Below are positions 2,239-35,847 of a DNA stretch of 44,693 nt, in pieces. This DNA comes from Candidatus Doudnabacteria bacterium (lineage in GTDB: Bacteria; Patescibacteriota; Dojkabacteria; J137; JAEUSD01): positions 1 to 44,693 of the forward strand of contig JAEUSD010000010.1 of NCBI GenBank assembly GCA_016788825.1, read 5' to 3'. Positions within the stretch are counted from its first letter, which is position 1. Every line of letters begins with the position of its first letter. The notes beneath the pieces were generated by a model. That model was not told the DNA's origin. It was given only the letters and a program-made list of their open reading frames with translations, and searched no databases. The position numbers and the translations under genes are program-made.

Positions 2239-2610
2239 TCACCTAAAGATATTAAGTGCTCGATGGAGAGCGGAAGTTCTTTTAGGTAGCTGTGACTCTA
2301 TCAATTTATTAATTATGTCTCTCAAATAGTTACGTGCATACTCTTCCCCCTTGTCTCCTCTGTTTAGTAAGTAAAAAGTCACAGCCGCGGGTAAAGAGGA
2401 GTCTTCATCCTCTAGGACTCTTTCTATTTCATGGATCAGCACTCCACTGTCTACATCACTGGGCATAACCTTAATGTAGCCCAAAAAGACACGTATGGCT
2501 TCATCATCGTACTCATCTTCTAGAAAACATACCCGCCCAATATGTGCTATCTGCGGGTAAGATTGTTCAAGTTGAGTTTTCGGTTTATCGTCAAATATAC
2601 TCAGCTTCAT
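2239..2610 (-). CDS. Probable immunity protein for the RNase A-like toxin
   Basis: A 123-residue acidic, helical, soluble protein without signal or membrane segment. Its ATG overlaps the TGA of the giant toxin gene (ATGA, 2607-2610), the tight coupling usual for toxin-immunity pairs. Size, acidity and the pattern of an acidic segment, a conserved 'HEIERVLED' helix and a C-terminal helix resemble the CdiI_2 family of contact-dependent-inhibition immunity proteins, but I see this by eye only. It is expected to stay in the cytoplasm and block the nuclease domain of its neighbour. A chaperone or an unrelated small protein remains possible. It ends the operon that starts at the promoter 10746-10789. 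Confidence 0.6.
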   Translation of the reverse strand: MKLSIFDDKPKTQLEQSYPQIAHIGRVCFLEDEYDDEAIRVFLGYIKVMPSDVDSGVLIHEIERVLEDEDSSLPAAVTFYLLNRGDKGEEYARNYLRDIINKLIESQLPKRTSALHRALNIFR

Positions 2611-8600: not shown

Positions 8601-9980
8601 TTGCCAAGTAGACCAGACCAATCCATCTTGTGATACCTGGTATTCAAGTTGGCCAACCCCTTCGGTACCGTCAGCGTGAACAGTATCCTGGGCTGCCAGA
8701 TGCACATTGACAAGTGTTGTCACTGTTTGACTTGCCCCAGAGTTTATTTCAACATTCACCGAGGGTGCCGAATTATCCAAGATTAGAGCATCACAGAGTG
8801 TGTTAGATAGGTTCTCAGCTTGATCTTTAACTTGAGCGCAAACTTGTTTGGTCCCAGAGATTTCTGGGTCTAGAAGTAGTATCTGTTGTTCAGCAAAGAA
8901 ATCTTGCCAGCCAGTAGTCCATAAATCAGATTGAATCTTTGTTTCACAATCTTGAGATGAAGTACAGTGTAGATACCTTACCCCAGCAATACCCGTTGAA
9001 TTTCCTAGTTCATCGATAGGGTCATACGCAGAGATCTGTAGACTTGTTGCATTTCCAGAAATGTACTCTGCGCCACTAGCCAAGATGTTTTCTGTGATTA
9101 TAGGGGCAGCAGTATCTAGATAAATAACGTCACTAACGATCTCCGACAGGTTCCCAGCTTTGTCACTTACTTGTGCATAAATGGTCAAAACGTTTGCTCC
9201 CGTATCCTGCCAAGTTAACTCAACTCCTGCAGATGAAAATGGTTGCCAGTCTTGCCACGTTATATTGTCAAAGCTGAATCGCATTTGATCTAAGCCTGCG
9301 ATGACACCAAGGAACTCTTGCCTAGAGTTTAGTAAAGGATCATCTGCGGTTAGAAAGACTTTATTCGTGTAACTCCCTGTGTATATAGCCTCAACCGGAG
9401 TTTCCAAAGAGCTACCAATTGTTACCTTCTTAAGGGCTGGGGTGACCAGGTCGTAAATCACATCATAGTTAAATATGGCCTCATTTCCTGCATGGTCCAA
9501 AACTTGCATGTAGTAAGTATTTCTTCCTTCTGCAAAGTCCATTTCTAACATTTCGTTTATCTCTGTTCCATCCCAAAGATTGCACCTACTGACCCAAGGA
9601 GAACAATCAGCTGAAATCTCTAGGTTTTTGTAGGTGAGCCAATTATTTTGTTCCCCTGCTGCTGTAAGAGGGTCGGTGGTAAAACGAGTCTGCTTTATGC
9701 CACTCGGCTCCACCCCAACCTGTGCCAAGTCGTAGCCAGTTACAATTGCTTGTAATTGTGTTGAATTGAAGTGATTCGTTTGCTGCCCTGCCAAGTTGTA
9801 AGTTGAAATCTGTACCTTAGCAGGCTGGTTGTCAGTTTCGAGAACCACCTCTTCTGCTGGCTGCTCCGGCGCCCCTTCCGCAAATACCTGCATACTCGCA
9901 GCCAGCGGAGGAACCTGAGTTGTGAATATAAAGATGGCAGTGACTAAAGTAAATAGTTTTCTTTTTAGTCTGTTACTCAT
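2607..9980 (-). CDS. Giant secreted polymorphic toxin: M23 peptidase, SH3b, LysM-like, LGFP and RNase A-like tip
   Basis: 2457 residues. Approximate order: signal peptide 1-35; several OmpL47/Ig-like domains to about 600; NBR1-type Ig domain 607-740; LysM-like module with Cys inserts 764-862; second NBR1-like Ig 871-984; three SH3b domains about 994-1217; M23 metallopeptidase 1237-1385 with all ligands (H1262, D1266, H1320, H1361-L-H1363); Cys-rich beta domain 1434-1580; LGFP-type repeats 1607-1947; hydrophobic segments 2078-2131 and 2154-2173; helical linker; C-terminal domain 2291-2457. The last matches the RNase A-like CdiA-CT pattern: H2338-x-x-x-R-H, then WLS, ending ITGYP with T2451 and Y2453 in the positions of the catalytic Thr and Tyr of that family. 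It is exported; the wall-binding and peptidase parts would act on peptidoglycan and the tip on target RNA. The gene lies 10 nt after the membrane protein at 9991 and overlaps its likely immunity gene. Confidence 0.85.
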   Translation of the reverse strand: MSNRLKRKLFTLVTAIFIFTTQVPPLAASMQVFAEGAPEQPAEEVVLETDNQPAKVQISTYNLAGQQTNHFNSTQLQAIVTGYDLAQVGVEPSGIKQTRFTTDPLTAAGEQNNWLTYKNLEISADCSPWVSRCNLWDGTEINEMLEMDFAEGRNTYYMQVLDHAGNEAIFNYDVIYDLVTPALKKVTIGSSLETPVEAIYTGSYTNKVFLTADDPLLNSRQEFLGVIAGLDQMRFSFDNITWQDWQPFSSAGVELTWQDTGANVLTIYAQVSDKAGNLSEIVSDVIYLDTAAPIITENILASGAEYISGNATSLQISAYDPIDELGNSTGIAGVRYLHCTSSQDCETKIQSDLWTTGWQDFFAEQQILLLDPEISGTKQVCAQVKDQAENLSNTLCDALILDNSAPSVNVEINSGASQTVTTLVNVHLAAQDTVHADGTEGVGQLEYQVSQDGLVWSTWQAFRADFVHEFRNIVFGEAVLMVRVRDGLGNVSRVAEDGIFINQFRATGSIVINDDAVFTNSDVVTLRLQPTVKPQFMKIWNQGENSTVVDLELFQTVKHWKLTESNGVKRVYVQYIYSNTREQLEPVYDEIILAPKYAVEYSSVATTSQEFTLSSLPQQVMASTELPVALAARNRGSMTWQPQSGYSGEQPVNISYHWYRFDEQAEDNIGQVYQYEGSRGILNKSVSYLESDDNIRFTIYTPAHTGKYVLLIDAVHEGNTWFSEWGNITPAFVLDVEENPEFLAPEDPEAVLGENDLGAGGTAYYIVQSARPWDPRWRCGGYDCYSGIAEEFYHCSARGIPNYVVTSTNPVDQMGMCWWPIYAANRHLYDGKVIPPGYRNNPWNWLPVGWHLVIPNVPDTWGAALLNRSHGGQLTVKQGEAVAVSAVYQNVGTGTWPKSSTRLGTQSPQDRNSVFSANWLAPHRTSSYMENANVLPNGAVTFLFDFNAPLNLASGTYTECFAPLVEGVAWMASQPVCWQVRVIPRELMTGRIFCTEGTDLYRAPGAQGFVRRIPYDSQVTILETVNGWHRISLEGDNQLWFDGTCFEQTGTVPNDEQSSSSVSYDPPTGDMGVVISTVGLKLRVGPGLQFGWDIEIPFGTEVKVLRQVLPGNDGLGGWYEVQLPDGTTGWVPAGYIDLAPGYNPPVWTPPQPLFSEAHICNTQFTELKYRLNWSSRTIETITQDANIRIIDVIGEWYYVSRLSGKSGYIHQSYVCEGFTSYGYGYGGIGSGVARVDGVDFVRPYAGNPTITSQFGPRWGTFHSGTDYGLACGTDIFASAAGVVADIATNGVVAGNNSTPQTPSNYIIIQHPSGWQSYYWHLSVVAVEIGQSVAMGEYIGKSGNTGWVVGNSSLPVEQQGCHLHFELRKNGVARDPEWVFVQKYYPPVNTNPSIPPSGGVQGVTGANPADPYAGMNGSQAAWPEVTYDRFIRWDGATKWNEIKWSETRRPQAPTITYAETAEDGNSVQVYGIGIPKNMPMHIKVWNEFRDCWGCGSGWEHHYKQDKAQHVKIVLFRDDWTYLGELWNDSPDGRWSIKLPLGGNLRPGDVIKAEVQIYSDYWFDGLKWWKDTYENGVHFNIWPLASGGGNRVGIPEAPIKDPVEYAFKQRELQLGDAVVDGVTHEWCGIKIRDYHSIGNYGDSVLMYNPSHNRAYLLTGGIWWSYYTYGGCGEFGMPLMDEGNTGRLVGWYQQFEKGNIYWSRDNAKSQPGIVRGAIKDHYEYMTGTWSYLGFPEGLQWGETSRCNTFGTMQHFTSGKIFSSKYGNLDIGYGGWSDIQNGLGGISQTGWPIKAPYNVSGSWAQWEMEEGVINWNFNSWFDHKGCGQASEREEDPANQFSEIIHAKENRDFKLFIRADNEFGKVHPWNCGGTTYWLADYDKIEKSNGEVLGASWVMVNNSSSTAYVITGKSKDYYLQHNGCEILGFPTMDTSFGAKPALLEGSLDWQTFSKGMYHYSYNLKTGYGFLSLGAWTNHHIEGAVTDTSIYSIYSQADPEYAGDAAHINGYLGAPVEAAVQASKTIDVLEGKQLNLTNAISFQGGYIGYSSEESRYVKILNSYGTDVYTQKLTGQTSFSADANAFIEGMLQGLVNVITDIVSNVIQFAIAVLAKVFGGVIGAVLNVAFFVVSIIRVIASVAENQEGIEYIFNGGDYLAKLRFMGSIVGSILGGILTAVAINSFADKAVQAIAKVGLLGQQMKKLADAGVEITSQLRKSLQTMMQEGEEGIAKADKVINAVTANSSIANRLVGDISKLTASEIDEVLVFLGKYGDEVFDFAEYTKFDEIGVGGGVSRYLKVREWKMFSSKAFGSAGEFLDEILKDPAAYIYATDGMPMVNQEGITHMYSRHIAISDADLMQRATIDSPGRIATKFYDLDSASYGLSEYLDTHRLYISNWLSTSSTGSVLDASQIPRHILDKAVGYGYLYSEGSLATYDNLDNILLTLQKTGNNKFLIITGYPTIK
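8375..8406. repeat. Intragenic inverted repeat, 12-bp arms
   Basis: ATTGCGGCTTCA (8375-8386) and TGAAGCCGCAAT (8395-8406) are perfect reverse complements with an 8-nt loop, inside the giant toxin gene. It is more GC-rich than its surroundings and one of a set of such repeats in this window. Confidence 0.8.
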
Positions 9981-16196: not shown

Positions 16197-19100
16197 CTAT
16201 CTATGTTTACACGCATCTCCCTCAAATACAAGCAACGCCGCGGAGAGTAAATTGTTTCCCTCTCTCTTAATATCCCCTTTATAAACCATACTTGGAGATC
16301 CTCCACCATCGAACAGGTTTCCATCTACTATTTTCCCCCCATATCGTGCAGCATACAAATTCAACTTATCGTCGATTTCGTTTGTAAAAAGAGTTCCTGT
16401 TACTATGGCGATCATTTTATTGTTATCAGTTACTCCAACTACTGTTCTTTGCCTTAATAGGTGACAGGCAGTACCCCCTATCGCATTACAAGGGTCAGTA
16501 AAATTACCGTCTTGAAAAATTCTGGGTCCACCCCCAACCACGTTATAGTAATTACCCTTATTGGTCGTGAATTCTATATTGTTTTCTCTGCTTATTACCA
16601 TTGAGGTCCAATTCCGCCAACCTGAGTAATCGTGACCCTGTACATAATTTATATCCATCGGCGAATCATCCATATCTACATAATCGGTGTTAAATGATGC
16701 GACCGGTCTTTCGTCACCGAGATATGCATTATCGTCATTTACGAGTTCTGAGAATTTGCTAGCTTTAAAATTCTTTTTCAGACTTCCATCAGGGTCTTTA
16801 TCTCCAATCTTGCCCTCTATCCCAACATGAGATTTCAAGCAGACTTGCTCGGGATTATGTAAGTCAACAACCAAAACGTTTAAATCATCTTCTTTCAGAT
16901 ATGTAATAGTAGCTGGTACAACAGGTTTTTCGAAACCACTTTCACAAAGCTTACCTTCTTCGACTAACTGACACCACTGCCCGTTTTCTTGATACATTTC
17001 CCCCATTGGAAACCCGTATCTAGCTGTTCCACCAGCACCTGTATGCAACTCATAAATCTTCCCTGTTGAAGAAAACGTACCGTATCTACTACTATGAACA
17101 ATTCCCCCGTCAAACTTTTGATATGACCCAGTCGTACCAGAAGGAGATACAGCCGCCAGCAGATCATCAGTTGCTGGAAGGCCTAAGCTGCCACATGATC
17201 CGCCATACTTATTCCAGTATGCCAGCCGAATATCTCCTCTTAGCCTAAACGCCCAGTTTAACCTTGGATTATATATTAGATTGCTGTAGGTTATCCAACC
17301 ATCTGCAGGAGCAGTTAAATAATTATAGTCACGCATCCAAGCACCACAGTACTCATGAATACCACCAGCAGCTTCATATTTATCTGAAATAGTTTCACGA
17401 TACTTTATTGCCCACTCATAATCCGTTAATGCCCGATCTGGGACAACCCCTCTTATACCAATTTCACTAGCAAAGTAAGGAACTCCGAAATATTTAGGAT
17501 TGCGAATGTCGAAGTTGACGTTCTCCGTAGTATCGCTCCACCAATGGAGGTTGTAGAAAGTATAGTCAGCCTGGACCTGAATTTCAGCTTTTATAAGATC
17601 CCCAGGTTTTAGCTCCCCCCCTAGAGGCAGATTAATTACCCAACGCCCATCAGGACTGTCATTCCAAACTTCGTCCAAATAAATCCACCTCCTTTCCGGA
17701 GTTTCCTTAAAAATAGCAACCTTTACATGTTGGGCTGTTGCCTGTTGGTAAAAAAATTCCCAACCACTTCCACACGCCCAGCAATACCTAAATTCATTCC
17801 AAACCTTAACATGCATTGGCATGTTTTTCGGTATACCAGTACCGTAAACAGTTACATTTGTCCCTGTGTCGTTTGTAGATAAGGCTGTTATCTTTGGTGC
17901 CGAGGGTCGTTTTGTTTCACTCCATTTAATTTGATCCGATTTATTACTTCCATCCCAAGAGATAAAGCGATCGAAAGTTATTTCTGGCCACTCAGAATAA
18001 GCACCGTTTATACCGGCAAAAGGATCATCGGGAGTAGCACCATGAAGACCTAAAAAGCTTCCCGGGTTTGGTGGAAGTATCGGAACAGATGGGTCGTTTG
18101 GACCAGAGCCATCCCAAGGATTAGATGGAATAAATAATCTCCACCCGACTTCCAAGTACTGCCAAGGTCTGGCCCTGTAGTAAGGATTCAAGATTTTACC
18201 AACATAAAGGAGTTTGTTTGCTTCATAAATGGGCCACCAGCACTTACCCATAAGTAATGCCGGAACCACTGTATCAGGCACATCATTAGCTATACCTAGT
18301 GCACTACAGTTATAAAATTCCTCTGCAATCCCCCTATAACACTCAAAACCCGCACATCTCCAGGTAGGATCCCAAGGACGACCTGGCTGCACCGTGTAGT
18401 AAAAAGCAGCTTGAGTACTACTTGATTCAAACACATTAGAATCCGTCAGCAAACTACCGCCTAAACGAGAGCCCAGACCTTCCTGCCCCACAGTAATATC
18501 AATCACATATTCGGGAGAACTGTTCCCAAACGAAGAAAACCATTGCCCACCGGCAGGGATTTCGGCAAAATCCCCTTCTATAGAAGGAGCAGCTTCAAGA
18601 ACGGCATCAAACTGCAAAATATACTTCCCTGGCTCCGTAGGAGCAGCAACTGAAAATAAAACGCTTGTATCTGCTTCAGCGTAGTCTACGTTCCTATTTA
18701 GTTGCCCCCTATTACCTTCAAACTCATATATCTCCTTGGCCCCTCGGTCAACTCTGAACCAGTGATAAGAAACATGGAAAGCATTTTTAGATTGAGCCTT
18801 TGCTGTAAAATCTTGCAGCCAAGTCTCGGAACCAGTGTTACGTACACTTAATGTCATGTTAAAGTTTGCCCCAACACTGAGCGCACTTGGCATTTTACCT
18901 ATCGTGTACTCTCCGTAACCTGTTAGCGTAGGTCCATAGTTGACCCCTAAAACTGGCGCATAAATAATACCCGCTGCAACTGGCTCGCTTACCGTTCCAT
19001 TACCATAAAGATATTGTACATAAAGCAATTTTTCTCCGTATCCCTCGCTTAAAGACCAACTTAAAGAAGAGGCGAAAGCTGCTGCTCTAACTTGGTCAGA

Positions 19101-20090
19101 GTTCTGCCCTTTTTCCCATACCTTAATTTGAGTGGGAACTCCCTGCGGGAACAAGTACAAATTGATATTGCGCTCTGAAGTGAAAGTCTCTCCATTGTTT
19201 ATTCTAAAGTATTGACTGTAGTGCGCAGGTGAGAAATAAATATCATCCGAGAACACATCCGATTCATTTCCAAGTGAATCTCGAAATTTCACATATCCAT
19301 TTATTCTGGTAGGCTGGGTAAGTTCGATCGGATAGCGTCCAGTCACCTCCTTTTGACCAGTGATAGGTAGCCATTCCTTCCAGCTATGGCGATCGTCACT
19401 TGCAGAGTATTCTATACCTCCGACCCCTTGAGAACCGTCAGCAAGAAGGCCATCTGTGGCCGTTAAGTGAGCCACAAGATCAAGCGAATTTGTCTCTGCT
19501 AGTCCGTTATTTATTACAACAGTCCCGAAAGGCGCAACATTATCTAAAGTAATGTCATCGCAACTATAATCATTCATAGGACTTATAACCTCTTGGGTAT
19601 CTTGGACCTGAAAACACAAGTATCGAATGCCGGATGAGGCAGGTGCAGCTAGCATCATTTGAGTAGAAAAAAACTTCCCCCCATAAGTATCTGTAAATGA
19701 GCTTGGAATTGGCTGCCAAGTAGACCACCTATTATTTATACCGTAAATCTGGAGACACTCTTCCTTACTAACACAAGTAAGAGACCTCAAGTAAGAAACA
19801 TCGTTATCTTTTGATAGTGCCTTATGAACCAAAATTGAAACATCTACTAGCCCATCTCGCGTGAACTTATCTCCCCTGTTGATAACAGAGAAAACCATAG
19901 GCTTTTGTGAATCTATACCTTTCAAGCCAGCACTAAATTGAGCCAGGTCCTTAGCAGTCTCTACTTTTTTAGATATTGTCTTGGGAAAACTATTATCCGA
20001 GGTTGCCTTCACAGTAAGAACAGGGGCAAAAGGATATAGAACAGTCACTAATATGAACGCTGTAGATAAGATTCTTTTGGCTTTTTCCAT
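16197..20090 (-). CDS. Giant secreted protein with phosphodiester glycosidase (NAGPA-like) tip
   Basis: 1297 residues from ATG 20090; an in-frame ATG at 20144 lies upstream of the promoter -10 box and is rejected. Signal peptide (core 'STAFILVTVLYPFAPV'); Ig/OmpL47-like domains; NBR1-type Ig domain; LysM-like module from about 560 ('YYTVQPGRPWDPTWRC', 'CWWPIYEANK', ending 'GWRLFIPS'); Cys-containing beta domain ('GTGIPKNMPMHVKVWNEFRY'); LGFP-type repeats; then from about 1074 a phosphodiester-glycosidase domain with 'NVVGGGPRIF', 'RTVVGVTDN' and the hallmark 'DGGGSPSMV'. Known members remove sugars linked by phosphodiester bonds. The scaffold is closely related to residues about 600-1950 of the first giant, without its SH3b and M23 insertion. 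Secreted; probably acts at a cell wall. Confidence 0.8.
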   Translation of the reverse strand: MEKAKRILSTAFILVTVLYPFAPVLTVKATSDNSFPKTISKKVETAKDLAQFSAGLKGIDSQKPMVFSVINRGDKFTRDGLVDVSILVHKALSKDNDVSYLRSLTCVSKEECLQIYGINNRWSTWQPIPSSFTDTYGGKFFSTQMMLAAPASSGIRYLCFQVQDTQEVISPMNDYSCDDITLDNVAPFGTVVINNGLAETNSLDLVAHLTATDGLLADGSQGVGGIEYSASDDRHSWKEWLPITGQKEVTGRYPIELTQPTRINGYVKFRDSLGNESDVFSDDIYFSPAHYSQYFRINNGETFTSERNINLYLFPQGVPTQIKVWEKGQNSDQVRAAAFASSLSWSLSEGYGEKLLYVQYLYGNGTVSEPVAAGIIYAPVLGVNYGPTLTGYGEYTIGKMPSALSVGANFNMTLSVRNTGSETWLQDFTAKAQSKNAFHVSYHWFRVDRGAKEIYEFEGNRGQLNRNVDYAEADTSVLFSVAAPTEPGKYILQFDAVLEAAPSIEGDFAEIPAGGQWFSSFGNSSPEYVIDITVGQEGLGSRLGGSLLTDSNVFESSSTQAAFYYTVQPGRPWDPTWRCAGFECYRGIAEEFYNCSALGIANDVPDTVVPALLMGKCWWPIYEANKLLYVGKILNPYYRARPWQYLEVGWRLFIPSNPWDGSGPNDPSVPILPPNPGSFLGLHGATPDDPFAGINGAYSEWPEITFDRFISWDGSNKSDQIKWSETKRPSAPKITALSTNDTGTNVTVYGTGIPKNMPMHVKVWNEFRYCWACGSGWEFFYQQATAQHVKVAIFKETPERRWIYLDEVWNDSPDGRWVINLPLGGELKPGDLIKAEIQVQADYTFYNLHWWSDTTENVNFDIRNPKYFGVPYFASEIGIRGVVPDRALTDYEWAIKYRETISDKYEAAGGIHEYCGAWMRDYNYLTAPADGWITYSNLIYNPRLNWAFRLRGDIRLAYWNKYGGSCGSLGLPATDDLLAAVSPSGTTGSYQKFDGGIVHSSRYGTFSSTGKIYELHTGAGGTARYGFPMGEMYQENGQWCQLVEEGKLCESGFEKPVVPATITYLKEDDLNVLVVDLHNPEQVCLKSHVGIEGKIGDKDPDGSLKKNFKASKFSELVNDDNAYLGDERPVASFNTDYVDMDDSPMDINYVQGHDYSGWRNWTSMVISRENNIEFTTNKGNYYNVVGGGPRIFQDGNFTDPCNAIGGTACHLLRQRTVVGVTDNNKMIAIVTGTLFTNEIDDKLNLYAARYGGKIVDGNLFDGGGSPSMVYKGDIKREGNNLLSAALLVFEGDACKHR

Positions 20091-20114
20091 AATTATAAAT
20101 TTGCGAATAAGGAG

Positions 20115-20158
20115 ATGATAGCAAACTAATTTTTCACTTGCCATGTATTACAATACAA
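20115..20158 (-). promoter_or_regulatory. Palindrome-type promoter of the second giant gene
   Basis: The variant palindrome (plus strand ATGTATTACAATACAA, 20143-20158; two differences from the other three) lies 22 bp from TATCAT (20115-20120). The start would be near 20108, 18 nt before ATG 20090. The palindrome lies inside the 3' end of the preceding gene, so it is kept within coding sequence. Confidence 0.7.
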
Positions 20159-22264: not shown

Positions 22265-24247
22265 TCAAACCAATGATGCCTTGATGCGGCGAATACCTGA
22301 GCCGCTACTTTCTTCCTTGGTGATTTTGAATTTCTTACCACCAGCACCAATTTCTGCTGTATTTCCCACGTGTGGGCCGCCACAGAATTCCATAGAGAAT
22401 GAGGCTTTCATTATCTCAAGCATTTTATCTGCGCCTAATACATCTACATCGGCACCGTTTTTAGCATCTTTAGGCGGAATACTTGTAATAAAGTAAACCA
22501 ATACTCTGTCAGGATATTTCTGGCCGAATTCCATTTGCGCTCCTAAACTCTCTGCTTTATCCTTATCCATGCTAATTCCATAAACAAAAAGTCCTTCTTG
22601 TATCTTTTGATTTACAAGCTCTTCAACCTGCTGGATCTCTTCCGGAGTCAACTTACGATCTAGGTTAAAGTCAATGCGCAAACGTTCACCGGTAATGTTA
22701 CTACCGCGCTGGCGGATGTTTGGATCAACCAGTCTCTGCAAAGCAGCCAGAAGTAGGTGGTGTGCAGTATGCAACTTCGTTACCTCTTCAGACTGATCAG
22801 CCAAACCACCTTTAAACTTCTGCTCAGCCCCCGCGCGAGATTGCGCGCGATGGGCAAGCTCGGCTTCTCGGTACTCGGTGAATAATTTATCGCCTTCCTC
22901 AACTTTCATTCCCAATTCTTCCAAAGCCATTTCCATCGGGAATCCGTATGTCTCATAAATAGTGAATAACAACTTTCCATCAATTGCAGCCTTGTTATCC
23001 TTGAGCTTCTGAATCTCTTTCAAACCAGACTTCAAAGTAGCTCGGAATTTCTCTTCCTCTTTTTGCAATTCAGACTTGATCTTCTCTGCTTGCTCAGCCA
23101 AGTGTGGATAAGCATAACTCATGTTTTCAATCACCACGTTTGCAATCTCAGTCGTGAAGTTCTGCTCCAAACCCAAAGTCATTCCAAAGCGGACCAAACG
23201 ACGGATAAATCTGCGAAGAATGTAGCCTTGGTCTTTGTTTGAAGGAACTACGCCGTCAGCCAAAATGAATGTAGACACGCGACCGTGATCGGCAAGTACT
23301 CGGAAAGCTTTTGTCCACTCATTCTCTTTACTATCAGTCTTGTACTGCTTACCTGTAAGACTTTCAATACGTTCAATGATTGGCATGAAAATATCTGTTT
23401 CGAAGATGTCGTTCTTGCCTTGCAGGCACATAACTACTCGCTCGAAGCCACCTCCAAAGTCTACGTTCTTTTGGGCCAAAGTTTGCCACTTAAGCGCTTC
23501 ATCGAGTTTGAACTGGATGAACACGCTGTTACCAACTTCGATGAAGCGCCCGTTGTCGGAGTTAATATTTAGCTCTGGATCTGGATATGCTTCAGCTTGC
23601 TTGCCAAGATCAAAGAAGATTTCACTGTCCGGCCCACCTAATTCACCGGCAGCGTTACCACGCTGCCACCAGTTTTTCTTGGCCGGATAAGTAAATATGC
23701 GATAACTCTTCTTGGTATCAATAAGGTTACCTGCGGCATCGAAATTCTTTTGGACATCTGTCGGATCGTCACTCACTAATGCTTCGATGCCGTACTTGGC
23801 ATACACTTTCTTCCAGATTTCAATTGACTCTTCATCTCGCGGAGCTGCATCATCTCCAGCAAATACCGACACATACAATTTCTGAATATCTAGGCCAAAT
23901 ACTTCGTGGTACAGCTCCATCACCCAGGGCAACTGTTCTGCTTTAAAATAATCTCCTAAGGACCAGTTGCCCATCATTTCAAACATCAAAGTATGCCTGT
24001 TGTCCCCGATTTCTTCGATACTCTCGCTATCTGTACGCAGGCTGCGCTGGAAGTTCACTAAGCGTTTACCCAGTGGGTGGGGTTCACCAGAAAGGTAAGG
24101 AACCAATGGGAACATTCCGGAGTTCACGAATAGAATTGTTGAATCGCCTACTGGTACTAAGGAAGCATTAGGGATTTCCTTATGTCCGCGTTCCTTACTA
24201 GTCCAAAATTCGAAAAACTTTTGTCGTATTTGTTTTGATGTAAGCAT
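22265..24247 (-). CDS. alaS: Alanyl-tRNA synthetase, short form
   Basis: 660 residues. Charges tRNA-Ala in the cytoplasm. The N-terminus 'MLTSKQIRQKFFEFW' and 'FVNSGMFPLVPYL' match the class II catalytic core; 'FGGGFERVVMCLQG' is motif 3. The editing domain is present with 'HTAHH' and 'CGGPHVGNTAEIG', so both halves of its zinc site remain. The protein stops just after this domain, lacking the DHHA1 and C-terminal regions of the 850-900 residue enzymes, as in other reduced genomes. Expression is controlled by the T-box leader at 24265-24429. Confidence 0.95.
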   Translation of the reverse strand: MLTSKQIRQKFFEFWTSKERGHKEIPNASLVPVGDSTILFVNSGMFPLVPYLSGEPHPLGKRLVNFQRSLRTDSESIEEIGDNRHTLMFEMMGNWSLGDYFKAEQLPWVMELYHEVFGLDIQKLYVSVFAGDDAAPRDEESIEIWKKVYAKYGIEALVSDDPTDVQKNFDAAGNLIDTKKSYRIFTYPAKKNWWQRGNAAGELGGPDSEIFFDLGKQAEAYPDPELNINSDNGRFIEVGNSVFIQFKLDEALKWQTLAQKNVDFGGGFERVVMCLQGKNDIFETDIFMPIIERIESLTGKQYKTDSKENEWTKAFRVLADHGRVSTFILADGVVPSNKDQGYILRRFIRRLVRFGMTLGLEQNFTTEIANVVIENMSYAYPHLAEQAEKIKSELQKEEEKFRATLKSGLKEIQKLKDNKAAIDGKLLFTIYETYGFPMEMALEELGMKVEEGDKLFTEYREAELAHRAQSRAGAEQKFKGGLADQSEEVTKLHTAHHLLLAALQRLVDPNIRQRGSNITGERLRIDFNLDRKLTPEEIQQVEELVNQKIQEGLFVYGISMDKDKAESLGAQMEFGQKYPDRVLVYFITSIPPKDAKNGADVDVLGADKMLEIMKASFSMEFCGGPHVGNTAEIGAGGKKFKITKEESSGSGIRRIKASLV

Positions 24248-24264: not shown

Positions 24265-24429
24265 AAAAAAAACTCCCGTCGCATAAACACAATTTGTGTC
24301 TACAGGACGAGAGTTAAGACTCGTGGTACCACCTTTATTCTGAGCCTAGGGCTCACTCTTAGAACGGTATTGAGTTGTTGGCATTGCTCTATTGAGCGGT
24401 TCTGGTTTGCACTTTTATCCAGATCACTT
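24265..24429 (-). promoter_or_regulatory. T-box leader with transcription terminator controlling alaS
   Basis: On the minus strand the leader carries AAAGGTGGTACCACG (24322-24336), the conserved T-box that pairs with the acceptor end of uncharged tRNA. It is followed by a terminator: ACTCTCGTC (24306-24314) and GACGGGAGT (24272-24280), then eight U. ACGAG and CTCGT just after the T-box can form the competing antiterminator. Stem III (GAGCC/GGCTC) lies upstream, and the stem I region is short (about 70 nt); GCC or GCA in it could be the alanine specifier. An extended -10 (TGCTATAAT, hexamer 24436-24441) gives a start near 24429. Uncharged tRNA-Ala should raise alaS transcription. Confidence 0.9.
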
Positions 24430-24446
24430 GTAGGAATTATAGCAGA

Positions 24447-25088
24447 CTAACTTTGCGCTTTGCGAATTTTGATAATGTTTCGGATGACTTTGTAAGTATA
24501 AATGGCGATAGCTAGAGCAATGATAACTAGAACGAGGTTTTCTACAGGCTTGAGGATGGCGAATACACTATTCATGTAGTCGTAGGCCACGAAACCGACT
24601 GCAATGAGAACTAAGTTCCAAATAAAACTGCCTAGCAAGGTAAATAAAGTGTATTCGCCAAAATGCATCTTGGAGATACCGGCGGGGAAAGCGATGAGGC
24701 TGCGTACAGCTGGGATCAGTCTGCTGGTAAACACCATCAGCTTTCCCCGCCGGGCAAACAACTTCTCTGCTTTGCGCACATCATCCATGGAGATCAAAAT
24801 GAAGGCGCCGTATTTCGCAATCAACCTAGGAAGGAGCGAATCGGCGCCGACCCTTGCAATGTAGTAAAAAGGTAAAGTTCCCACGTAGTTTCCCAACGCT
24901 GCCACCACACTAGCGATCACAACAATCGAGAAATCTCCGCTTTGCTTTGCAGCTAAACCTACTGTAGGTAAAACGACTTCCGAAGGGATCGGAGCAAAAA
25001 AAGACTCCAACATTGTGGCTGTGAAAACCCCGACATACCCAAGCTGTTGGATCAGACTAATGAGGAGGTGGGTAATTTGTTCAAGCAC
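24447..25088 (-). CDS. DedA-family membrane protein
   Basis: 213 residues, several membrane helices, with the DedA/VTT pattern: 'ESFFAPIPSEVVLPTVG', 'GNYVGTLPFYYIARVG', 'FTSRLIPAVRSLIAFPAG' (conserved Arg and Pro) and 'GSFIWNLVLIAVGFVAYDYM'. Family members are polytopic proteins linked to lipid scrambling, envelope maintenance and membrane potential. The start is a GTG at 25088, ten bases after the previous stop. The alaS promoter overlaps its 3' end. An inverted repeat with 14-bp arms lies at 24679-24753. Confidence 0.9.
   Translation of the reverse strand: MLEQITHLLISLIQQLGYVGVFTATMLESFFAPIPSEVVLPTVGLAAKQSGDFSIVVIASVVAALGNYVGTLPFYYIARVGADSLLPRLIAKYGAFILISMDDVRKAEKLFARRGKLMVFTSRLIPAVRSLIAFPAGISKMHFGEYTLFTLLGSFIWNLVLIAVGFVAYDYMNSVFAILKPVENLVLVIIALAIAIYTYKVIRNIIKIRKAQS
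24679..24753. repeat. Intragenic inverted repeat, 14-bp arms, 47-nt spacer
   Basis: CCGGCGGGGAAAGC (24679-24692) and GCTTTCCCCGCCGG (24740-24753) are perfect reverse complements inside the DedA-family gene, around the conserved Arg/Pro motif. Confidence 0.9.
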
Positions 25089-30383: not shown

Positions 30384-32795
30384 TTAAATGTCCCCGTTGA
30401 GTGTTCCTCTGCCTGTATCAGGACGAATTGTAATGTTGTACATCGGAAGGTCACCATACGCATCCCCATCACCAACCATAGCTTTGATCTTTGTTTTGGG
30501 AGTAAATTGATAAGTACCTACTTTGACTGCGCCTTCTTTTCCTTCACTATACGCCAAGGCCACATTCATGCGAACTCTCTTCTGCCCAGAGAATCCTTTT
30601 CCTGTGTGAACGATCACCCCTCTTGTAGCATCATATGTAGTATTTGCTTCATTTAATATCACATTAAAATGAACCTTTGAGTCTCCAGAATACATAACTT
30701 TAGCAATGATCTTTTCGGAAGGACCTCCATAACTATTGAAGATAATAGCTCCCCCAGGTGCTGATGCTTTATCTGGAACTTCAAGTATCATATTACCTTC
30801 TAGTTTATTATCTTTTTCCTTTAACAAGTTCTGTACCAAGGACTTTGTAAACCCCCCATACCCTTCTATATCAGGGAAGGAGATACTGATCGAGAATTTA
30901 ACACCCTCCTCACCCTGTTTTGGTGTAAACGGTGTTGAGGTATTTCCGTAGAAAGCCGCCTGAGCATTCCCTGTTCCCCTCAAGACAGCTATCCGACCAT
31001 CTATAACTCTTTTACGCAGGAAACTTGTATTGGGGTTACTTCGTTCTGCCTGCAATGCTGCAATCTCATCACGCCTACTATCTACAAATTTCTCTGCCGC
31101 AGTATCATCAAATGGGCCTGAACGTGATTCTCCAATCGTTCTCCCAATTAGTCCACCGGTATTTCTCCATGTGGTATTTAGTGTACTTCGACCTGCAGAG
31201 TAAGCGGCAGGCAGCGCTGTGCGGAATGCATAGTCACCGGAGTACTTGATATCATCGACATACGGCTGAAGTGCCTTAGGGATAAGGGTCTGTTCCACAC
31301 CCAGCCTAGCGTCTATGTCGTCCAAGATTTTGGGTAGCGACAAAAATAAGAATGCCCCAATTAGAGTGAATAGAAAACCACTTGAACCTAAGCCGTTATT
31401 CACAGAGCCCTGCACAGCGCCAGATACAAGTAATCCCAAATCTCCCAACAATGGAGGTTTAAACTGATAAGTACTTACGTTAGGGATACTGTTGAAAAAG
31501 GCTTCGTTCGTAAGGACAAGAGTGGTCAACATCACTATGTAGGTCACCACAAAAAACAGCGCCGCTGCTGCTAAGTTTTTCAAATAAGTGACTACATTTT
31601 TCGAACCTGTGCCAGGAATCGCTAGGGTGGCAAAGATAAATGGCGATAGAATCGGCAAGAACATTAGCGTGACAAGTTTGATCAAAAGCCGCTTAGCGAC
31701 ACGAATACTCACAATAATGGCGACAATATGAAATGCTAGATTTATCAGCCCACCAAAGACGTTTGAGGAATTGCCCAGAAATGTCTGGAGAATGTTATCC
31801 ACAAAAGTGGCAATTCCGCCATTCGTAATAGTACAGAAGTCTTGCTGTCCTTCAGCCGGTTCACCACAAAGCCTTATCTTAGCAATATCGCCAAGTCTAT
31901 TTACCCCAATACGTTCGTAATAGCGGAATATGTTTAATCGCCAGTCATCTGCATAAAGCCCACGCCCTTCATTGTATTGTGGGTCCCCATTTTGCACACC
32001 TTGCAGATATACATCCCTCCCGGGACCTGCTGGGCCAAAGATAAAGTCGTGGTAGACGTTTGTAGTTAGAGTAATCGCATCCACAAAAATGCCAGATATG
32101 GGATAACTCAATGGGATCAGGATCATCGCCATCACGATCCCAGGCAATGCATTTTGTAACTGGACCACTACGCCACCGTCGATTTGAGCGCGGAACATTA
32201 AAGCAAAAGCAACCCCAACGATGATCAGAATCATAAAGCTGTAAGAGACAGTGACTGACCAGCCCCAAAAAGATTGGATAGGTGTAAGTAGTGTAAATCC
32301 GGTGCCTGGGAAATAAGGTGCTGGATCTGTTGTGGCGGCGCCTGCGGCGCCGCCATCATCACCCCCAGCGAGCACAGGCTCCGGAGAAAAAGCTTTATCT
32401 ACTTGATTCACAGCAAATAAAATTCCGCTAGTGGGACGCTGCTCTAGCATCGCATAATTCACGTTCATTAAGAAGCTGCTAATCCCCACTGAAGATCCCC
32501 CCATACGGGCCAGCAGAATTTTTACCGCCGCCTGATCACCTTCGCTAGCCGCGGCTTTCAAATTGTTATACTCTGTCTGAGACGCACCTCCCAGTAACTT
32601 GGAAGATGCATCAATAAAATTTGCCATCAAGCCCGAAGTACAATGAGTTTCTATTCCCTGAGAAGCTGCCAGACAAACCTCTTCAGGCAAATCCCTACCT
32701 ACTAAATTTTCGAACGAAGGACTATCCGCACTTACGGGCAGCGGAAGTAATAGGAAACTCACAATCACCACAAATAGGACAGTCAACCTGCGCAT
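30384..32795 (-). CDS. Polytopic VirB6/TrbL-like membrane protein
   Basis: 803 residues. Signal peptide 1-23, a helical periplasmic-type domain, then several membrane helices between about 175 and 500 ('SFMILIIVGVAFALMF', 'GIVMAMILIPLSYPISGIFV', 'LLIKLVTLMFLPILSPFIF', 'ALFFVVTYIVMLTTLVL') and a long soluble C-terminus. Topology and size resemble VirB6/TrbL-type inner-membrane components of type IV secretion, often seen in this bacterial group, but sequence signatures are weak. The TraG/VirD4-like ATPase gene lies just beyond the PduO-type gene. A promoter at 32801-32829 puts the ATG five bases after the -10 box. A tight hairpin (32333-32355) lies in an Ala/Gly-rich segment. Confidence 0.65.
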   Translation of the reverse strand: MRRLTVLFVVIVSFLLLPLPVSADSPSFENLVGRDLPEEVCLAASQGIETHCTSGLMANFIDASSKLLGGASQTEYNNLKAAASEGDQAAVKILLARMGGSSVGISSFLMNVNYAMLEQRPTSGILFAVNQVDKAFSPEPVLAGGDDGGAAGAATTDPAPYFPGTGFTLLTPIQSFWGWSVTVSYSFMILIIVGVAFALMFRAQIDGGVVVQLQNALPGIVMAMILIPLSYPISGIFVDAITLTTNVYHDFIFGPAGPGRDVYLQGVQNGDPQYNEGRGLYADDWRLNIFRYYERIGVNRLGDIAKIRLCGEPAEGQQDFCTITNGGIATFVDNILQTFLGNSSNVFGGLINLAFHIVAIIVSIRVAKRLLIKLVTLMFLPILSPFIFATLAIPGTGSKNVVTYLKNLAAAALFFVVTYIVMLTTLVLTNEAFFNSIPNVSTYQFKPPLLGDLGLLVSGAVQGSVNNGLGSSGFLFTLIGAFLFLSLPKILDDIDARLGVEQTLIPKALQPYVDDIKYSGDYAFRTALPAAYSAGRSTLNTTWRNTGGLIGRTIGESRSGPFDDTAAEKFVDSRRDEIAALQAERSNPNTSFLRKRVIDGRIAVLRGTGNAQAAFYGNTSTPFTPKQGEEGVKFSISISFPDIEGYGGFTKSLVQNLLKEKDNKLEGNMILEVPDKASAPGGAIIFNSYGGPSEKIIAKVMYSGDSKVHFNVILNEANTTYDATRGVIVHTGKGFSGQKRVRMNVALAYSEGKEGAVKVGTYQFTPKTKIKAMVGDGDAYGDLPMYNITIRPDTGRGTLNGDI
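32333..32355. repeat. Intragenic hairpin, 10-bp arms, 3-nt loop
   Basis: TGGCGGCGCC and GGCGCCGCCA form a perfect stem around TGC, inside the VirB6-like gene at its Gly/Ala-rich segment. Confidence 0.75.
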
Positions 32796-32800
32796 AATTC

Positions 32801-32829
32801 ATTATAGTGCTTATGGACGGGTCATACAA
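32801..32829 (-). promoter_or_regulatory. Promoter of the VirB6-like gene
   Basis: Minus strand TTGTAT (32824-32829), 17 bp, TATAAT (32801-32806), then five bases to the ATG at 32795. The expected transcription start coincides with the start codon. Confidence 0.7.
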
Positions 32830-32897
32830 CCTATCTCGCAATAAAGAACATTAGCTGCCAACTCCTGTTTGCTAGCCCATAAGTTATAATTGGGTAT

Positions 32898-33476
32898 ATG
32901 AAAATCTATACCAAAACAGGCGACAAAGGCGAAACAGGTTTTATTGGAGGTCGTATCGCAAAGTCCTCCCCCTTGATGGAATGTTTGGGGACTTTGGATG
33001 AGTTAAATTCGATGTTTGGTGTACTCCGAAATCAAAAGGTGGGGGCAAAAAACCATAAGAAACTCAGGGCGATCCAGTCAGCAATATTGCATATCGGTGG
33101 CTGCATAAGCGCTATCGCCACAAAACCCAACCAAGCATTGCTCAAAGAACTAGAATCACTCGTCCAGAAACTCGAAGTAGATATTGATACTATGTGGGCA
33201 AAACAACCTGAGTTGAAGGGCTTCATCGTGCCCGGCGGCACAGGTGAAGGCGCCCAGTTCCATTTGGCTCGCAGCCTGTGCCGCCGGGCAGAACGTAGCC
33301 TAGTCACATGGCGCAGCTCAGAGGAATTGAAGACGTTAAAAAAAGATCTCGACTACTTTGAGAGCTTATCCATTCCTCTGCGATTCCTAAATCGTCTTTC
33401 TGACTGGCTATTTGCCCAGGCAAGGGCTTTGGATGGAAACAATGAACAACTTTGGGATAAAACACTGGATTTCTGA
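32898..33476 (+). CDS. pduO: PduO-type ATP:cob(I)alamin adenosyltransferase
   Basis: 192 residues. Transfers adenosyl from ATP to cob(I)alamin to make coenzyme B12. Conserved motifs are all present: 'MKIYTKTGDKGETGFIGG' (ATP-binding N-terminus), 'GTLDELNSMFG', 'FIVPGG', 'LCRRAERS' (the key Arg/Glu segment) and 'FLNRLSDWLFAQAR'. Cytoplasmic, usually a trimer. A TATAAT (32885-32890) lies seven bases before the ATG. No other cobalamin gene is in the window, so the B12-dependent partner is unknown; the fold could also have been reused. A 16-bp inverted repeat overlaps the conserved motifs. The stop converges on the ATPase gene. Confidence 0.92.
   Translation: MKIYTKTGDKGETGFIGGRIAKSSPLMECLGTLDELNSMFGVLRNQKVGAKNHKKLRAIQSAILHIGGCISAIATKPNQALLKELESLVQKLEVDIDTMWAKQPELKGFIVPGGTGEGAQFHLARSLCRRAERSLVTWRSSEELKTLKKDLDYFESLSIPLRFLNRLSDWLFAQARALDGNNEQLWDKTLDF
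33229..33290. repeat. Intragenic inverted repeat, 16-bp arms, 30-nt spacer
   Basis: TGCCCGGCGGCACAGG (33229-33244) and CCTGTGCCGCCGGGCA (33275-33290) are perfect reverse complements. The arms encode the conserved VPGGTG and LCRRA motifs of the PduO family, so the pairing arises from codon choice in conserved protein sequence and not from an inserted element. Confidence 0.95.
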
Positions 33477-33477
33477 A

Positions 33478-35847
33478 CTACTTTGTACGCTGTTCTTTCT
33501 GCATCAAATTACCGTCTTTGTTGTAACTCTGTCCTGCCCATTTGAAGATTTTATCTTCGACAACTTGCCTCTCACGTGCGAATTGTTTACGAGAAGTTTC
33601 AATTACCGCTTGTTCCAAATTTGTGATTGGATAGCCAAGCTGCAGCGTCTTCATGCTAAAAGGCTTCGACTGAGCACCATCAATTGAAAGCTTTGTGAAT
33701 CCACGGTATTTAGGCAAATTTACCAAATCTTCCCCCTCTAAGTAAGGCGCATACTCTTTCACTAAGTACTCTGCATCACGCGGACCGACGGCAAAGTTTA
33801 CAAGAGTGCCGACATTTCCGAACACCGCGTTGCGGATACCGAGATCGATTTGGTCAATGAATTGGTGAGCGATATTCAAAGATAACCCGTATTTACGAGA
33901 CTCAGACAAAATCTTTTCAAACGTGGGGTTGGCGAAATTTTGAAACTCATCAATGTATAGGTAAAAAGGTCGCCTGTTCTCTGGATCCGTGTCTACCCGC
34001 TGCATGATGCTGGAATATATGCGGGTGACTAAAGTTCCACCCAACAATGACATATTCTCCTCTCCAATCTTTCCTTGGGCCAAGTTTACCAACAGAATTT
34101 TGCCTGAATCCATCAGTCCTCGGAAATCAAAACTTGAGCTGATCTGGCCCACCATATTGCGAATGATCGGGTTGGTTGTAAACCTTCCTATTTTATTCAA
34201 AATAGAGGCTATCTCCTCCGATTTACGTTTAGGGTCACGGGCGATCTCTGCATATTCCTCATTCCAGAATTTGAGCAAGATAGGATCCTTCACCTGCTTA
34301 AGCAAAAATTTGCGGTAATTGTCGTCGCTGAGGATCCGGGGGACCGCGAGGATGGAAACATTCTGACAATAAAGCAATGTTAAGAAAGTGTTTGTTAGGA
34401 AATACTCTAGTCGCGGTCCCCAAGAATCTTTGAACAGCTTCTTGAACACACTTACCATACCATCGGCTATCAAGCTTTTATCCTCCCCTTCCTTTGCCTC
34501 AATCAAGTTCCAAGCTACTGGGAATTCGGTATCTCCAGGAGCCAGTATCACGACGTCATTGACTCGGTGCTCTGGGATTCTCTCTAGAATATGCTTAATT
34601 GTTTCTCCATGTGGATCGATTACTCCAGCACCATTCCCAGCATAGATATCCTGCAGAATCAAATTCTCCATAAATGTGGATTTACCCGTACCCGTCTTTC
34701 CAATCACATACATGTGACGCAATCGATCCACAGGGCGTAGACCAAAACGCTGATGTATACCGCGGTAATCTGTCTCCCCCATCACCAAAATATCTTGGGT
34801 GGGCACATTGAGGGGAAATTCTAACTGACGTGACATAGCCCACCCAATGTTTGGTGTTTCTACCGATGCATTCGGTAAGTGATACAAGGAAGCCAGCTCT
34901 TCTGTATTTACAATTCCAGATTCAAACTCATCTAGAAACCTAGTTTTGTACTTCTGCAACATGCTGAGTCGTTCCCCTTTACGTTTGCCTCGAATCAATT
35001 GCAAGATTGCCAATTGAAGCTTCTCTAGCCAAGTTTGCTTTCTGGCGGTGCTTCCTAAGCTATTGAATACCGCAGTTTGGTACTGTCCGAGCGCCGCCAT
35101 CACCTCGTTTACCACCCGCTTTGATTCGATCTCAGATGGGGTTTTTGCCAGAATACGCAACACAAATTGAAATCCCACCTTGGAGGATTTTGCCTCCACC
35201 AACTTATTGATGTTCTCCGGCTCAAAAGTTTCACTTTCTCCCTCTTTGGGTTTCTTAGAATCTTTCACATACTTTCGGCCAGCTTCTTGCCATGAGTCGG
35301 AAATTGGCCTGGCTAAAATCTGGGTAAACACCTCATAACCCTGAGGTAAGTTGCTCATTGCAGAGGTTAGGCCAGCCAGTGGATCCACCTCGAAGCTTAC
35401 AAAGGTTCGAATGGGCAAAAAGAATTGCTTTTGAAGCCCGACCTCAACAACCGTTACAAATTGATCAGCCTTGCTGGGAGTCTCGGTGTAATCACTTATC
35501 TCGATTATCTGTGCTTCTGGGTACTGTCCGTAGATCTGATTCTCTACAAACGTCTTATACTCTTTGGAAACAACACAAATGAAATGGATCCCGTAGCTAC
35601 CCGCAGCAATCTCTAGGCTTATATGATCTTGGGATTTTGCTTTATTCAGACGCATTCCGTGAAGCGACGCGTACAACTGCTCCGCAGCTAAGGGACTCTT
35701 TTTATTCGCCCGTGGAACGGCAATCTTGAGAATAACTTTACGTTGAAGCTCTTCATTTACCTTTGTAGCCAAATACTGCCTACGATAGTAGTACCAAAGC
35801 CCAAGAGTGAGGGCCAAAAAAGCTAAAAAAATGACTGTCGGCAGCAT
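33478..35847 (-). CDS. TraG/VirD4-like (DUF87-type) membrane ATPase
   Basis: 789 residues. One N-terminal membrane helix (about 3-20), a large domain to about 350, then a P-loop ATPase: 'VIGKTGTGKSTF' (Walker A, near 385), 'NGAGVIDPHGE', and 'PFYLYIDEFQNFA' (Walker B), followed by 'SESRKYGLSLNIAHQF'. This is the pattern of type IV secretion coupling or conjugation ATPases common in this bacterial group. It would pump protein or DNA through a channel, perhaps with the VirB6-like protein at 30384. A CATAAT box five bases before the ATG suggests a leaderless mRNA. No relaxase or mating-pair set is present. Confidence 0.85.
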   Translation of the reverse strand: MLPTVIFLAFLALTLGLWYYYRRQYLATKVNEELQRKVILKIAVPRANKKSPLAAEQLYASLHGMRLNKAKSQDHISLEIAAGSYGIHFICVVSKEYKTFVENQIYGQYPEAQIIEISDYTETPSKADQFVTVVEVGLQKQFFLPIRTFVSFEVDPLAGLTSAMSNLPQGYEVFTQILARPISDSWQEAGRKYVKDSKKPKEGESETFEPENINKLVEAKSSKVGFQFVLRILAKTPSEIESKRVVNEVMAALGQYQTAVFNSLGSTARKQTWLEKLQLAILQLIRGKRKGERLSMLQKYKTRFLDEFESGIVNTEELASLYHLPNASVETPNIGWAMSRQLEFPLNVPTQDILVMGETDYRGIHQRFGLRPVDRLRHMYVIGKTGTGKSTFMENLILQDIYAGNGAGVIDPHGETIKHILERIPEHRVNDVVILAPGDTEFPVAWNLIEAKEGEDKSLIADGMVSVFKKLFKDSWGPRLEYFLTNTFLTLLYCQNVSILAVPRILSDDNYRKFLLKQVKDPILLKFWNEEYAEIARDPKRKSEEIASILNKIGRFTTNPIIRNMVGQISSSFDFRGLMDSGKILLVNLAQGKIGEENMSLLGGTLVTRIYSSIMQRVDTDPENRRPFYLYIDEFQNFANPTFEKILSESRKYGLSLNIAHQFIDQIDLGIRNAVFGNVGTLVNFAVGPRDAEYLVKEYAPYLEGEDLVNLPKYRGFTKLSIDGAQSKPFSMKTLQLGYPITNLEQAVIETSRKQFARERQVVEDKIFKWAGQSYNKDGNLMQKEQRTK

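Follow-up and report, generated by a model that had tools for sequence, protein, structure and literature searches.

The window analyzed here is the whole of a 44,693-nucleotide (nt) stretch of DNA (contig JAEUSD010000010.1, assembly GCA_016788825.1) in which alaS, the gene for alanine--tRNA ligase, is preceded on the minus strand by a leader running from 24429 to 24265. This leader holds a specifier codon, Stem III, an antiterminator, and a rival U-tailed terminator, all 5' of alaS (Table 1), and it sits between alaS and a gene for a DedA/UptA-like membrane protein on the same strand, whose stop codon (24447) adjoins the predicted alaS promoter. The best alaS relatives are those of Candidatus Dojkabacteria (WS6), at 53-57% identity, identifying the host as an ultra-small bacterium of this group; its genome assembly comprises 1.09 Mb in 56 contigs. 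A preliminary description made from the DNA letters alone had read the locus as a compact T-box with an antiterminator and a U-tailed terminator ahead of alaS, in a genome of the candidate phyla radiation type. The match to the Rfam T-box model RF00230, folding, and the match of the encoded protein to NCBIfam PRK01584 bear out the first point, and the relatives of alaS agree with the second. Our comparison with related leaders suggests that this is a previously undescribed, stripped-down form of T-box, here called headless, which lacks half of the codon-holding stem.

Table 1. Features of the alaS leader and the adjoining genes, in window positions
Feature	Position	Strand	Basis
DedA/UptA-like membrane protein gene upstream of leader	24447..25088	minus	matches below curated cutoffs
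-10 element TATAAT, extended (TGCTATAAT), inferred alaS promoter	24436..24441	minus	sequence; shared by headless leaders
AAGUGA, inferred transcript 5' end and first T-loop (AGUGA) of the double T-loop motif	24424..24429	minus	sequence; start of model R2
Distal Stem I hairpin UCUGG[AUAAAAGUGCAAA]CCAGA	24401..24423	minus	pair probabilities about 0.93-1.0; covariation in 15 relatives
Small hairpin GCUC[AAUA]GAGC between tip hairpin and specifier	24386..24397	minus	folding, sequence
Putative specifier GCC (Ala), pairing with anticodon GGC	24380..24382	minus	tRNA-Ala(GGC) in genome; position in relatives
AAUA element, 8 nt past specifier	24368..24371	minus	18/29 leaders
Purine motif AAGAG (RRRNG) and Stem III UGAGCC[CUA]GGCUCA	24341..24360	minus	sequence, folding
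Antiterminator AGG / bulge UGGUACC / ACGAG...CUCGUCCU (pairs AGG/CCU and ACGAG/CUCGU)	24304..24334	minus	RF00230 match, sequence
Intrinsic terminator, hairpin (24315-24271) and U8 tail ending at 24265	24265..24315	minus	folding
alaS, alanine--tRNA ligase, 660 aa, controlled gene	22265..24247	minus	ATG at 24247; NCBIfam PRK01584, 573.8 bits, over cutoff

The T-box core of the alaS leader

The T-box UGGUACC (24331-24325) presents UGGU (24331-24328), which is complementary to the ACCA end of tRNA-Ala with its discriminator A73. The 3' strand of the antiterminator is also the 5' strand of the terminator, and so the two structures exclude each other. The terminator hairpin folds at -23.5 kcal/mol, compared with a mean of -7.6 and a minimum of -16.7 in 500 mononucleotide shuffles. 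The purine motif ahead of Stem III corresponds to the RRRNG motif described for T-boxes in PMC7778990. The leader thus contains what characterizes the T-box superfamily, namely a UGGN bulge facing the NCCA end of the tRNA, a cognate specifier, and an alternative terminator. On its sequence, the alaS leader is almost certainly a T-box, ordinary in its predicted function and unusual in its anatomy.

RF00230 matched the leader with 32.9 bits (E 1.2e-5, 501 bases searched), and in a search of the whole host genome the leader was the sole match at E<=10 (E 5.9e-6). The gathering score of RF00230 is 93, and a scan of the window at this threshold returned nothing, which is why stock annotation misses the leader. 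The preliminary description had named the lack of a model score above threshold as evidence against a T-box. The score does fall short, but the gathering score is a score cutoff with no structural criterion and is too strict here, since only 3 of 85 genomes of the class Dojkabacteria have a match above it. The RF00230 alignment itself was of no use for the alaS leader, because it stretched a canonical Stem I over unrelated bases.

The 5' end of the leader and its relatives

The predicted transcription start lies 6 nt past TATAAT, at the tip of Stem I that binds the tRNA elbow, and coincides with the end point of the element in the preliminary description, 24429. A covariance model trained without the window (R2, see below) begins at exactly the same nucleotide. 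The loop of the tip hairpin contains a second T-loop, UGCAA (24411-24407). The published consensus of the interdigitated double T-loop motif (IDTM) is AGAGA and UGxRA (PMC7583486); given the AGUGA and UGCAA of the window, its hairpin corresponds to Stem I at the distal end. The 5' strand of Stem I, a kink-turn (K-turn), and Stem II were not found in the alaS leader, nor did inspection by eye reveal an S-turn motif AGUA/GAA in it. The short Stem I of the preliminary description was therefore right but understated, as the whole 5' strand is missing. Two other readings of this region were rejected. The first hairpin is not a Stem II with an S-turn, there being no AGUAGAA motif and nothing 5' of the hairpin, and a IIA/B-like pseudoknot proposed by eye (AGAAC/GUUCU with ACUC/GAGU) was ruled out by a probability of about 0 for the AGAAC/GUUCU helix. 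As judged from the sequence, it is probable that the RNA starts at the tip of Stem I and that the 5' strand of this stem is absent.

Headless leaders were collected by reading leaders, scanning all loci for the tip hairpin, and searching with two covariance models, R1 built on six leaders and R2 on fifteen, neither of which included the window. At E<=0.5, R1 matched 50 of the 85 class genomes, its matches including canonical leaders; R2 matched 19 of the 85 at E<=0.003 and, in a sample of 379 genomes from the phylum, 18 at E<=0.02. The window was found by R2 at 24429-24315 (32.8 bits, E 0.0012) and by R1 with 22.5 bits (E 0.05). By eye, 27 leaders were listed and two (L418 and L414) were added later, giving 29; most counts below use the 27. 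The 29 leaders precede aspS (14), glyS (9), thrS (4), alaS (1), and argG (1), as named by NCBIfam on representatives, and come from 19 genomes, 18 within the class and one (G102) outside it. Carriers include five named genomes: WS6 bacterium OLB20, the Dojkabacteria Bin_125, Zod_Metabat.1309, and HKST-UBA15, and bacterium DTUPAT2. R2 also matched 11 further genomes that lie outside the class (E<=0.02), and when all were inspected G102 alone was judged headless. A Clostridia-like control yielded 2 of 245 genomes at E<=1e-4, both canonical by eye, a weak negative because only 15 candidates per genome were scored. BLASTN against the 85 genomes found no close relative of the leader; the best non-self match (E 1.1e-4) covered the T-box/terminator half only and lay before argG.

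Several candidates were set aside. An Acidaminobacter match (L397) is a canonical leader, and L353, L357 (serS), L358, L193, L209 (lysS), and L373 (proS) have some of the features and were not counted; their tip hairpin is unclear or a 5' strand is possible. The headless-like L358 (G014:C5) has a linker hairpin resembling that of the window and G as its T-box base (UGGG).

The host genome has three R2 matches, before aspS (C55:18025, 62 bits, in the training set), before glyS (C33:68430, 40.5 bits), and in the window. Their specifiers are GAC, GGC, and GCC and their T-boxes UGGC, UGGA, and UGGU, respectively, and the T-box base agrees with the tRNA discriminator in all three, as C-G73 (Asp), A-U73 (Gly), and U-A73 (Ala).

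The tip hairpin covaries among 15 relatives, with all five pairs changing on both sides and double changes in 27 of 75 cells. Pairing reaches 89.3% in these relatives; shuffled controls give 59.3%, and slid ones no more than 46.7%. Whole-leader MAFFT alignments (A1 and A2) misalign the hairpin, and RNAalifold recovered three pairs only; alignments A3 and A5 were built on subsets. At the other end of the leader, a poly-U run follows the T-box in 26 of the 27 headless leaders, and L235 ends in a broken U run.

These relatives also bear on the idea that the leader is a canonical class I or II T-box whose 5' Stem I strand is transcribed from a promoter farther upstream, such as one inside or ahead of the DedA-like gene, with TATAAT present by coincidence. 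Since the DedA-like gene is on the same strand, readthrough transcripts may exist. However, the upstream 60 nt do not pair in excess with the segment after the hairpin (z +0.95 in the window, mean 0.02 in the 27 headless leaders), in contrast to 14 canonical leaders, in which these segments do pair (mean z -2.3). Furthermore, a perfect TATAAT lies 4-10 nt before the start in 12 of 27 leaders against a background of 0.9%, and a match of at least 5/6 is found in 20 of 27 against 8.2% of background positions. The gap from the best -10 site to the AG bulge is 5-9 nt in headless leaders versus 45-50 nt in four of five canonical leaders from the class or phylum; the fifth (L186) has no clear best site. 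An upstream-encoded Stem I strand is on this evidence very unlikely.

Specifier choice and proposed mechanism

The preliminary description had left the specifier as GCC or GCA, to be decided by related leaders. The tRNA-Ala genes of the host have the anticodons UGC, GGC, and CGC (loci of 30 of 42 tRNA matches examined); with tRNA-Ala(UGC) and tRNA-Ala(GGC) both encoded, either codon is readable. GCC lies 3' of the tip hairpin with no conserved helix around it and has U before and A after, matching the U-NNC position of related leaders, 26 of 27 of which have U just before the codon. A cognate C-ending codon occurs 4-22 nt past the hairpin in all 27 leaders, compared with a mean of 10.1 and a maximum of 19 in 20,000 permutations of the genes, a result that is no strict probability because the sequences are related. 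AAUA follows the specifier by 7-9 nt in 18 of 29 leaders (mean 2.1 and maximum 8 in shuffled tails). Without its 12-nt inserted hairpin, the window linker measures 6 nt, and the linkers of other headless leaders 7-13 nt. Because the U-NNC position and the AAUA spacing agree with the relatives, GCC is favored as the specifier; the loop GCA falls on a conserved T-loop position.

GCA would be the specifier if the first hairpin were the whole of a class III-like ultrashort Stem I, with the codon in its apical loop (UGCAAA). GCA in this loop is followed by A, ultrashort stems with cognate loop codons are common in the same class, and the canonical alaS leader L002 probably uses GCA as its specifier. 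Yet UGCAA fits the T-loop consensus UGxRA, which is present in the loops of all 27 headless leaders whichever of the five genes follows (aspS, glyS, thrS, alaS, or argG), and the loop GCA is thereby explained without being a codon. The K-turn GA...GA of ultrashort leaders is also absent from the window, and it is GCC rather than GCA that fits the relatives, so we consider an ultrashort Stem I unlikely.

We favor the reading that alaS is controlled by a transcriptional T-box riboswitch of the headless type, to which we assign a probability of roughly 0.8. In this reading, RNA polymerase would initiate immediately downstream of TATAAT, where the distal tip of Stem I lies. The anticodon of uncharged tRNA-Ala(GGC) would then pair with GCC, the tRNA elbow would stack on the double T-loop (AGUGA and UGCAA), and the free ACCA end would pair with UGGU, holding the antiterminator so that alaS is transcribed. 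Charged tRNA-Ala would be unable to pair at its 3' end, allowing the terminator to form and turning alaS off. The geometry appears reasonable, in that 6-13 unpaired nt could span the stretch from elbow motif to specifier that takes up about 15 helical nt in L002.

Several observations weigh against this reading. No good -35 element was seen, and the start site is predicted from the -10 motif, which matches TATAAT at just 4/6 in six of the 27 leaders and at 3/6 in one. Just one headless leader, that of the window, precedes alaS, and its linker hairpin is absent from the other listed headless leaders. UGGU replaces UGGC in 2 of 14 aspS leaders, and the specifier of the argG leader (L284) is uncertain. 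For the transcript as far as Stem III, the fold favored by RNAfold has a helix (GCUC-UAGAGC/GUUCUA-GAGU) with GCC inside its 20-nt loop, and for this reason GCC may not be strictly single stranded in the free RNA; the helix vanishes once the antiterminator region is included. Finally, the list of leaders was drawn up by eye and includes many related sequences, the training sets of the models contained aspS and glyS members, and all genomes are assemblies, mostly metagenomic.

We also weighed whether the leader is a decayed, nonfunctional T-box remnant in a reducing genome, as its low Rfam score, its missing Stem I strand, and the 25 of 85 class genomes without an RF00230 match at E<=1e-3 might suggest. 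Against decay, every other part of the leader is intact and the tip hairpin covaries. The arrangement recurs with a matching codon before five kinds of gene in 19 genomes, and the T-box base fits the discriminator in each of the three host leaders. A remnant is accordingly extremely improbable.

Two kinds of headless leader showed further features of their own. Behind L364 (342-2138, G000:C55), L354, and L371, aspS is of the nondiscriminating aspartate--tRNA(Asn) type according to NCBIfam, although the specifier is GAC (Asp); in contrast, L036, an ultrashort leader before an aspS of bacterial type, has AAC (Asn) in its loop. In L284 (G018:C78), a short open reading frame beginning MFYSYSSNNNSNRRR, with three consecutive Arg codons, lies between the T-box terminator and argG and resembles an attenuator leader peptide.

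T-boxes in Dojkabacteria and the published classes

The preliminary description had regarded the alaS leader as a single notable T-box, perhaps acquired by transfer. This was not supported. RF00230 matched 8 of the 10 genomes in the order, 60 of the 85 in the class (E<=1e-3), and 116 of the 379 in the phylum sample (E<=1e-5), 13 of the latter above the cutoff, and the host has three headless T-boxes; because T-boxes are this common in class and phylum, the alaS T-box is no isolated transfer. Among 14 control genomes in the class search, matches occurred only in B. subtilis, L. lactis, C. glutamicum, and two Deinococcus-Thermus species. In the class, T-boxes precede ileS, valS, aspS, glyS, proS, alaS, trpS, tyrS, lysS, thrS, serS, leuS, argS, glyQ, and others, as annotated on one representative per cluster. 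alaS is present in 74 of the 85 class genomes and follows an RF00230 leader in six (G000, G001, G008, G019, G044, and G083). A 2008 survey described T-boxes in Firmicutes, Actinobacteria, Chloroflexi, Deinococcus/Thermus, and two Proteobacteria (PMC2494555), and the words Patescibacteria and Parcubacteria are absent from the main text of the TBDB paper (PMC7778990). We found no report of T-boxes in Patescibacteria, the candidate phyla radiation, or Parcubacteria in the open literature, with most subscription journals, preprints, and the TBDB and Rfam member lists outside the scope of this search.

The class contains three kinds of Stem I: long and canonical (as in L002, before alaS of G001), ultrashort with a K-turn, and headless. 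Ultrashort leaders carry the cognate codon in the apical loop (trpS UGG, ileS AUC, valS GUC, glyS GGC, and aspS AAC). Many of them have poly-U terminators (L036, L144, L188, L034, L190, L194, L248, L251, L219, L254, L262, L277, and others) and represent transcriptional class III-like leaders, in Dojkabacteria and one other Patescibacteria genome; ultrashort stems have been reported mainly for translational T-boxes. Two of the ultrashort leaders (L277/L245, G041:C21:27376-27662) form tandem T-boxes before glyS, both with GGC in the apical loop. T-box leaders were also seen before a HAD-family hydrolase (L185, loop codon UCC, perhaps serB) and a DUF2000 protein (L189).

The scheme of PMC10482949 divides T-boxes into four classes, of which classes III and IV lack the IDTM and are mostly translational. 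Headless leaders resemble class II (Bacillus subtilis glyQS type) in being transcriptional, in having the IDTM, a flexible linker to Stem III, and an antiterminator opposed to a terminator, and in lacking Stem II. Unlike class II, they have no 5' strand, K-turn, or specifier loop, and their members include Ala, Asp, Thr, and probably Arg besides Gly; the alaS leader in particular is neither glycine specific nor equipped with a full Stem I holding a specifier internal loop. With class I (B. subtilis tyrS type) they share transcriptional output, the IDTM, Stem III, and the antiterminator/terminator pair, but the long Stem I, the specifier internal loop, and Stem II with its S-turn are all missing from the alaS leader. 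Classes III and IV (actinobacterial ileS, with ultrashort or intermediate Stem I) have a similarly reduced Stem I, yet they need Stem II and place the specifier in the apical loop or a side bulge, whereas headless leaders keep the opposite parts; the alaS leader has the IDTM consensus, no K-turn motif, and its predicted specifier outside the hairpin. None of the four published classes fits headless leaders, which belong to the superfamily by their T-box, antiterminator, Stem III, and cognate specifier. These leaders probably constitute a fifth structural class, found in Dojkabacteria and one other Patescibacteria genome, in which the RNA would begin at the double T-loop, display its codon on essentially linear RNA, and measure only about 75-110 nt from its 5' end to the T-box (75 nt in the aspS leader of the host, the shortest). 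A tRNA would thus be decoded away from the ribosome with no specifier helix, K-turn, or Stem II. The headless form could have arisen by reduction, or it could be left over from a simpler ancestral switch.

A long Stem I with an elbow-binding tip has been described as a general requirement of transcriptional T-boxes (PMC7583486). If headless leaders work, the codon-holding helix, K-turn, and Stem II would be dispensable given the elbow grip and the 3'-end sensor, and the long-standing question of the minimal tRNA-sensing RNA becomes testable with a construct of roughly 160 nt. The leaders hidden by the cutoff of the standard model also add a large, underannotated set of T-boxes in Patescibacteria, amino-acid-dependent bacteria whose gene regulation is barely known.

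Elsewhere in the window, two giant, secreted-looking proteins encoded on the minus strand at 2607-9980 (2457 aa) and 16197-20144 (1315 aa) have a common repeat region, PGRPWDPxWRCxGxxCYxGIAEEFY.... At 30384-35847, also on the minus strand, an 803-aa multispanning membrane protein is encoded beside a VirD4/TraD-like ATPase (weak NCBIfam matches), and the two may belong to a type IV secretion or DNA transfer machine.
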